From: Candidatus Bathyarchaeota archaeon
Lineage (GTDB): Archaea; Thermoproteota; Bathyarchaeia; Bathyarchaeales; DTEX01
Assembly: GCA_003661975.1 (NCBI GenBank)
Contig: QMXE01000003.1
Location: forward strand, 1-40,021
Reading direction: 5' to 3'
Length of the DNA: 40,021 bases
In this document: in pieces, positions 4,762-6,738 of the stretch
How the letters are laid out: every line of letters starts with the position of its first letter
Numbering within the stretch: the first letter of the stretch is position 1
Made by a program: the position numbers and the translations under genes
The notes under the pieces: generated by a model
Told to the model about the DNA's origin: nothing
Seen by the model: the letters and a program-made list of their open reading frames with translations, nothing else
The model's database searches: none

Positions 4762-5145
4762 GTGATGAGTGAGGATGAAGAGAGGATCTATGTGATCCAG
4801 AGGCATCAAGCGTCACATTTGCATTGGGACCTACGCTTAGAGATGGATGGGGTTTTGAAGAGCTGGGCGGTCCCAAAGGAGCCCCCTACAAGAAGCGGTA
4901 TAAGAAGACTTGCAGTTCAAGTTGAGGATCACCCGATAGAATATGCGAATTTTGAGGGTGTAATCCCGGAGGGGCAGTATGGAGCGGGCATAGTTGAGAT
5001 CTGGGATAAGGGAACATACAGGCTGATAGAGCGAACCCCAGACAAGATAGTCTTTGAGATTCATGGGAAACGGTTAAAAGGTAAATACTGCCTAATAAGG
5101 TTTAAAGGGGAGAAGAATTGGCTTTTCTTCAAGAAGAAGCAGTGA
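4762..5145 (+). CDS. Standalone LigD-type 3'-phosphoesterase (PE) domain protein
   Basis: [32 protein letters not shown], the PE signature His/Asp/Arg motif, followed by [22 protein letters not shown]. Start is GTG 4762 or ATG 4765. Confidence 0.92.
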
Positions 5146-5146
5146 G

Positions 5147-5641
5147 TTGATGATGGATCGCAGAAGATACACGATGCTCGATGCGATCTCAGAAGTTCTC
5201 TCCGAAAAGAGGTCGCCAAAGAGGCTTCCAACCGGTGTGGAGCGAGTTGAGAGGATCAGCTCAGACATCATTAGAATCCAATTCGCGGATGACGTGGACT
5301 ATGGCATTCTCAGAGCTGAGGCCGTAAGGGAGGGATATCGCGTTGAAAGCGGCATGTTCACCCCGAGAATAACATATCATGGCACGATCATAGCTCGTGT
5401 CGGCGGGGAATCTGACCCTGCAAAGCAGAGGAGCATCTTCATATATCTGATCCCGCCGGATAAGAGCGAGATGAATACATACAGGAGGGTCGTCGCCGTC
5501 AGGCATGGGGTGATCGATCCCATAACTGGACGTCTAAACTTCCAGAAATTCCTTGAATATAACCTTAAGATCATCAGGCTGCTGGAGAGATATAGAAAGG
5601 CCAGATATGAGAATCTGCCCGAAAAGGTAGAATTCCATTAA
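5147..5641 (+). CDS. Uncharacterised protein (164 aa)
   Basis: Good ORF immediately downstream of the PE gene; I do not recognise a domain. Confidence 0.75.
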   Translation: MMMDRRRYTMLDAISEVLSEKRSPKRLPTGVERVERISSDIIRIQFADDVDYGILRAEAVREGYRVESGMFTPRITYHGTIIARVGGESDPAKQRSIFIYLIPPDKSEMNTYRRVVAVRHGVIDPITGRLNFQKFLEYNLKIIRLLERYRKARYENLPEKVEFH

Positions 5642-5669: not shown

Positions 5670-5715
5670 TTTATTACTGATTGGTAATATTTAAATATTA
5701 CCAATCAGTAATAAA
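5670..5715. promoter_or_regulatory. 46-bp perfect palindrome (2 x 23 bp) centred on an archaeal TATA box; probable operator/promoter of the regulator-HSP20 operon
   Basis: TTTATTACTGATTGGTAATATTT|AAATATTACCAATCAGTAATAAA. Arms are perfectly complementary with the centre between 5692 and 5693. The central TTTAAATA lies about 26 nt before the GTG start at 5719. Confidence 0.9.
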
Positions 5716-5718
5716 AAT

Positions 5719-6135
5719 GTGGCGAGACCCATGGGATTGAAGATAAGGCTCATAAAGGACGAGGAGGTGCTCCTGGAGATCCCAATATCAGTAGCCGAAT
5801 GGTCAAGGGAGAACCTAGAGAGCGAGATGAACATGATCGAGGAGGAATTCCAGAAGTTCTCGAGGATCTTCAGCGCACTATCCAATGAGACATGCATGAA
5901 GATGATGTGGAGATTCATGATGAAGGAGGATTCATCGCTGAGGTTCGCCGAGCTGATGCAGAGTCTAAACCTAAATCCGAAGATAGTATGGGAGAATCTT
6001 GGGAGGCTCAGTGAATGCGGATTCCTAGAGAAGATCGGGAGGGGAAGATATAGATGCTCAGAGTTCGGACGAAAAGCCTTCATGCTGATGGGTCTCGCCA
6101 TGAGGCAAATACTCGATGCAATTGAAGAAATTTAA
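5719..6135 (+). CDS. Winged-helix (ArsR-like) transcriptional regulator, putative heat-shock regulator
   Basis: IFSALSNETCMKMMWRFM...LRFAELMQSLNLNPKIVWENLGRLSECGFLEKIGRGRYRCSEFGRKA is an ArsR-like wHTH pattern; in operon with HSP20. Confidence 0.82.
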   Translation: MARPMGLKIRLIKDEEVLLEIPISVAEWSRENLESEMNMIEEEFQKFSRIFSALSNETCMKMMWRFMMKEDSSLRFAELMQSLNLNPKIVWENLGRLSECGFLEKIGRGRYRCSEFGRKAFMLMGLAMRQILDAIEEI

Positions 6136-6150: not shown

Positions 6151-6738
6151 TTGACGGATGAGTGGGACAGATGGTTCAGGAGGAGATTCCCATTCTTTAG
6201 AGGGGGAATATTCGATGACATCGATAGGATATTCAGGGAGATGGAGGAGATGATGCGGAGGGAATTCGAGGAGTTCTCAAGGATCACACCAAAGAATCTC
6301 ATACGTGAGAGGACATTGCCTGACGGCTCAAAGATACGTGAGTGGGGCCCATTCATCTATGGATACAGCGTTACGATAGGCCCGGATGGGAAGCCTGAGA
6401 TCAGAGAGTTCGGCAACGTAAAGCCCGAGATGAAACTTGGAGGTCCAAGGATAAATATCAGAGAGGAGAGGGAGCCGCTCGTTGATGTGATGGAGACAAA
6501 TAATGAGGTTAAGGTTATCGCTGAGCTTCCGGGAGTCGAGAAGAAGGACATTAAGCTCTACGGGACAAAGGATACATTGACGATCTCAGTTGATACTCCG
6601 GAGAGGAAATACTACAAGAAGGTTAAGTTGCCATGCAGGGTTGATAATAAGAGCGCTAAGGCATCATACAAGAATGGAGTTCTAGAGGTTACACTGAAGA
6701 AGGAGAAGGAGCCAGAGGGAGAGCCGATACTGCTGTAG
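6151..6738 (+). CDS. Small heat shock protein, HSP20/alpha-crystallin family
   Basis: SD GGAGGTGA at 6137-6144 before a TTG start; alpha-crystallin domain (VDVMETNNEVKVIAELPGVEKKDIKLYGTKDTLTISV...YKNGVLEVTLKK) and C-terminal EGEPILL. Confidence 0.93.
   Translation: MTDEWDRWFRRRFPFFRGGIFDDIDRIFREMEEMMRREFEEFSRITPKNLIRERTLPDGSKIREWGPFIYGYSVTIGPDGKPEIREFGNVKPEMKLGGPRINIREEREPLVDVMETNNEVKVIAELPGVEKKDIKLYGTKDTLTISVDTPERKYYKKVKLPCRVDNKSAKASYKNGVLEVTLKKEKEPEGEPILL

Follow-up and report, generated by a model that had tools for sequence, protein, structure and literature searches.

To our knowledge, dedicated heat-shock transcription factors have been described only in Euryarchaeota, where they are represented by Phr and HSR1. 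Both proteins belong to arCOG01684 (PMC5852551), a mostly euryarchaeal group (PMC9133787, PMC5852551), and each acts on hsp20, CDC48 and its own gene. Phr of Pyrococcus furiosus (PF1790, PDB 2p4w, NF053602) is an ArsR-type winged-helix protein of ~190–200 residues, in which the winged helix is followed by a further C-terminal domain. It represses hsp20, an AAA ATPase gene and its own gene by blocking the promoter; it occupies one 29-bp site over the start, for which the elements TTTA, TGGTAA and AAAA are required. HSR1 of Archaeoglobus fulgidus is encoded first in an operon with hsp20, is autoregulated and binds an inverted-repeat site, CTAAC-N5-GTTAG, upstream of its own gene (PMC9133787); its regulon also includes CDC48. 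For Crenarchaeota, two recent papers state that no thermal-responsive regulator is known (PMC10746257, PMC10653856), and a literature search found no heat-shock regulator of Bathyarchaeota.

The locus considered here lies in a bathyarchaeal window, by which is meant the whole 40,021-nucleotide stretch of DNA that was analysed. An inverted-repeat scan confirmed what a sequence-only reading had described, a perfect 46-bp palindrome at 5670–5715 whose 23-nt arms (5670–5692 and 5693–5715) are 100% complementary with a spacer of 0 nt. It is the strongest inverted repeat in the 40-kb window; perfect arms of at least 23 nt are expected ~6e-10 times per window at the base composition of the window, and ~1e-7 times at the local AT content. 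The regulator–HSP20 operon named in the same reading is also present on the plus strand: the frame of a predicted ArsR-type winged-helix regulator (5731–6135, 134 residues) is followed by a gene for an HSP20/alpha-crystallin small heat-shock protein (6151–6738; PF00011, E 7e-10).

The palindrome, predicted to be a double operator plus core promoter, is a composite, laid out as TTT-ATTACTGATTGGTAAT-ATTTAAAT-ATTACCAATCAGTAAT-AAA, in which two 16-bp self-dyads surround an 8-bp symmetric TATA. Each 16-mer, ATTACTGATTGGTAAT at 5673–5688 (predicted operator unit 1) and ATTACCAATCAGTAAT at 5697–5712 (predicted operator unit 2), is itself a dyad of the form ATTAC-N6-GTAAT, and the two dyads (TTACYnnnnRGTAA) flank the TATA 24 bp apart. 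The symmetric 8-mer ATTTAAAT at 5689–5696 overlaps the TATA element TTTAAATA (5690–5697, plus strand), which lies on the dyad, at the centre of the palindrome as first proposed. Unit 1 overlies the BRE position, beginning 17 nt ahead of the TATA with its TTAC core at -16, while unit 2 lies between the TATA and the expected transcription start, with its TTAC core at +8. The 46-bp symmetry is perfect because two symmetric sites flank a symmetric TATA, and because the two spacer cores resemble each other in a genus-specific manner.

To place these units in context, 101 genomes were searched for the regulator and its promoters were read; 44 loci were examined, three of them nearly identical. TTACYnnnnRGTAA units, one to three each, occur at the regulator's own promoter in 44/44 loci, with at least two in 42. 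In 40 loci a unit lies within 120 nt of the conserved start (two or more in 38), and a control pattern, the same motif read backwards, is found 0 times in the 120-nt windows of the 44 loci. Four loci (L036, L037, L040 and L046) have a longer reading frame, open ~90 codons further upstream, with a pair of units spaced 21 bp apart at the start of that frame, 270 bp up; in these loci the regulator may be fused to an N-terminal domain. Relative to the first TATA base, most loci place the start of TTAC at -16, +8 or +22: the window's genus uses -16 and +8, and other families use -16/+8/+22, -16/+22 or +8/+22. Among 95 TTAC-N6-GTAA sites, Y and R adjoin the half-sites in 93; A and T are favoured outside the half-sites, and the four inner bases show no preference beyond AT-richness. 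What appears to be kept across relatives is the TTAC/GTAA dyad and its register to the TATA, and not the 46-bp symmetry.

The palindrome had originally been treated as one unit, and as such it is not conserved. The four genus-mates that have the operon show one to three mismatches to it, nearly all in the cores, so that the arms do lose some complementarity in close relatives, but both dyads and the 24-bp spacing are kept in all four. Within the window's genus the inner cores are complementary at 15 of 20 positions against 8.8 expected by re-pairing (p ~0.005), weak evidence because it comes from five related genomes; in other families the figure is at chance (25/72 against 26.5 expected). The TATA, too, is mostly asymmetric outside the genus. 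Full symmetry thus looks like a trait of the window's genus, perfect only in the window's species, and not like a shared function.

These comparisons bear on whether the palindrome might act as a structure, either a DNA cruciform or an RNA hairpin or terminator read through from the upstream gene. The window's strand does fold to a 20-bp hairpin (-24.7 kcal/mol, z -10.7), and the raised core complementarity in the genus is what arm-to-arm template switching could produce. The folds of genus-mates, however, reach no more than about -13 to -14 kcal/mol, and the long hairpin does not form in other families. A hairpin or cruciform as the conserved function was rejected because outside the genus the cores are symmetric only at the chance level, while half-sites and TATA register are kept, and a structural role for the palindrome is considered highly improbable.

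The reading that we hold to be probable, with good confidence, is that the adjacent ArsR-fold protein uses the palindrome as a double operator and is an autorepressor of the regulator–hsp20 operon, released under stress. One repressor dimer would sit on each 16-bp dyad, ATTACYnnnnRGTAAT. Since unit 1 overlies the BRE and unit 2 falls between the TATA and the start of transcription, a pair of dimers would keep out TFB/TBP and RNA polymerase, and the operon would stay off. On heat or other protein-folding stress the repressor would let go, so that regulator and HSP20 are made together, and on recovery newly made repressor would re-close the promoter. From this arrangement we infer three steps: the regulator binds these sites, it acts as a repressor, and heat is its signal. 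Autoregulation over the core promoter by the adjacent winged-helix protein had been suggested from the window's sequence; it is the simplest reading and now gains support from comparison, since the type of site, the TATA register and the HSP20 neighbour are kept through the 44 loci.

The regulator could instead activate transcription, or its signal could be one other than heat. ArsR/SmtB metal sensors such as CadC and CzrA regulate themselves via an inverted repeat at their own promoter, and the protein resembles them in fold. Its AlphaFold2 model (pLDDT 90.6) has an N-terminal beta hairpin, a winged helix and one long C-terminal helix, and its top Foldseek matches are CadC and other ArsR proteins (E 1e-4; TM 0.54–0.55 of the query for the metal sensors). 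The family is rich in metal and redox sensors, and HTH_metalloreg is the best NCBIfam profile for the regulator. Both this profile (18.5 bits against 55) and Pfam HTH_5 (16.5 bits against 22) stay below their cut-offs, and the output differs from that of the metal sensors, being a chaperone and not a metal pump. Against another signal, the regulator alignment has only one near-invariant Cys, and across the phylum the regulator lies beside HSP20 or CDC48, which Phr and HSR1 also control. The registers of the units, over the BRE, just after the TATA and over the start, would all fit occlusion, and fit it better than activation. It is therefore judged unlikely that the sites are conserved for a regulator answering to metal, redox or a ligand with HSP20 as a general stress output, or for an activator. 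Another DNA-binding protein could also own the sites; in one genome (G011) twin units precede hsp20 alone, and the regulator was not found in that 71%-complete genome.

Autorepression by the adjacent protein would most likely make this system work like Phr or HSR1, to judge from gene order and sites. As in the HSR1 operon, a winged-helix protein is encoded first, an inverted-repeat site lies upstream of its gene, autoregulation is predicted, and HSP20 lies directly downstream of the regulator in 44/44 loci. The sites differ from that of HSR1, being TTACY-N4-RGTAA rather than the repeat bound by the Archaeoglobus protein. The required elements of the Phr site recall the TTTATTAC..GGTAATA.. pattern found here, and gene order and sites would fit repression of the Phr kind, by blocking of the promoter. 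Phr-family membership was considered and rejected: the regulator scores 14.1 bits against the NF053602 cut-off of 320, which no genome locus exceeds, and with 134 residues it has an N-terminal beta hairpin and lacks the Phr C-terminal domain. The PDB profile match to Phr has an E value of 0.044 and the structural match a TM of 0.42. Whereas Phr uses a single site over the start and has several targets, the operators here consist of two or three units tied to the TATA, and the window's genome has one target. Named relatives of the regulator number nine, with 50–65% identity, and all come from Candidatus Bathyarchaeota MAGs.

The start of the regulator bears on how its transcript begins. The sequence-only reading had placed the start at a GTG about 26 nt downstream of the palindrome's centre, on a leaderless transcript. 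The codon is present (GTG 5719, 26 nt past the dyad), and would give a protein of 138 residues, but a leaderless start there is doubtful. In L009–L011 the matching codon is not a start, and a nearby upstream ATG is out of frame. In most orthologues the start is at the M-x-L-K position, whose equivalent in the window is ATG 5731, and this ATG is the likely start. A few bases ahead of it, GGCGAG (5721–5726) is a candidate ribosome-binding sequence; GGCGAG or a close variant sits at this place in most loci. A transcript that begins near 5719 and has a short leader, rather than a leaderless GTG, would account for this arrangement.

A promoter with such symmetry may also fire on the minus strand. 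In P. furiosus, BRE-TATA-BRE promoters fire both ways, with starts ~50 bp apart, and yield antisense RNAs that are regarded as non-functional (PMC6640164). The window's promoter resembles these in having a near-symmetric TATA with a BRE-like element on either side, and BRE, TATA and operator units are all mirror-symmetric; it differs in that its symmetric flanks are conserved predicted operator units. Firing on the minus strand would give RNA antisense to the 3' end of the gene at 5147–5641, under the same repressor, and would add to autorepression rather than oppose it. In three relatives (L104, L114 and L115, in G165, G214 and G219) the regulator operon and a divergent DUF5320-like gene lie on either side of the block; therefore some relatives probably use both directions. 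At the window's locus, however, no gene is divergent and the upstream gene is co-directional, and the TATA is mostly without symmetry outside the genus. Firing in both directions in the window is thus a tentative addition, with the chances somewhat against it.

The units are specific to this operon in the window's genome, which is 92.9% complete and for which such statements rest on pattern searches. TTACYnnnnRGTAA occurs there only as the two units in 5670–5715, against seven places for the control pattern; looser matches, with 2–3 mismatches, are also fewer than those of the control. A search for the TATA-plus-unit pattern with up to three mismatches gave nothing comparable elsewhere in the genome, and a wider regulon there was rejected, as neither pattern gives a second site. 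The two other HSP20 genes of this genome lie on contigs without the motif, a point that weighs against the operator reading. The twin-unit pattern (10-bp gap), searched for in 257 genomes of the class, turned up at 23 places in 19 genomes, and the control at 0. Twenty of these places precede the regulator, with HSP20 next in 19, one precedes hsp20 alone, and two, in G085 and G095, precede a small DUF5320-like gene. This gene, which looks like a further regulon member from the sites at its promoter, had no match in the window's genome at E 1e-3. Its product has 69–71 residues with the motif xFGHxHFGxRxFLTKEE (L092 and L093 in the two genomes with the operator at its own promoter).

Among farther homologues in the phylum, CDC48 lies next to the regulator in L141, L142 and L146 and before it in L143, in line with the HSR1 regulon, and HSP20 lies beside the regulator in L145 and L149. 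The HSP20 of L145 was identified by BLAST, while the CDC48 genes and the HSP20 of L149 were recognised by reading their translated sequences. TTAC-N6-GTAA units occur in the promoters of L139–L142, L144 and L149, and none was found in those of L143 and L146–L148. The search proposed earlier for such sites before hsp20 or AAA genes has thus yielded hsp20 alone in G011 and a regulator–CDC48 operon in L141 and L142.

The locus is a real and well conserved operon of a chaperone, most likely autorepressed, and the perfection of its 46 bp is the least important part of it. Few self-contained chaperone switches are known in archaea, and this locus points to one. Both gene position and a sharply conserved operator link a small ArsR-fold protein, distinct from Phr, with HSP20 or CDC48 in Bathyarchaeia and some other lineages of the phylum. 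We lean, by a modest degree, towards a dedicated heat-shock (proteostasis) repressor family in these lineages that shares only its fold with Phr; its modular operator would be locked to three TATA registers and would serve one operon in most genomes, regulator–hsp20 or, farther out, regulator–CDC48. Such a system would offer a handle on whether repression of chaperones at the core promoter predates the systems of Euryarchaeota or evolved a second time. The fixed registers would also make it a clean model for repressors that share space with TBP, TFB and polymerase in archaea.

Several neighbouring features were observed at these loci. A truncated second copy of the regulator (L103/L050, G068:C1:301460-301766) has a full three-unit operator with no HSP20 behind it. 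In L144, two operator units are present and the next gene encodes a 153-residue protein with an HEYLH motif, possibly a metallopeptidase, in place of HSP20 or CDC48; a similar protein is found beside a single operator unit in L095 (G075). In several loci of other families (L042–L049), a divergent neighbour on the minus strand, ~80–150 bp upstream, adjoins the operator block and encodes a protein with a CHLCARHCKI motif that, by eye, is radical-SAM-like. Just upstream of the palindrome in the window, at 4762–5641, a gene for a stand-alone LigD-type 3'-phosphoesterase domain (PF13298, E 3e-40) is followed by a hypothetical gene, an order that is kept in the genus-mates L010–L012.
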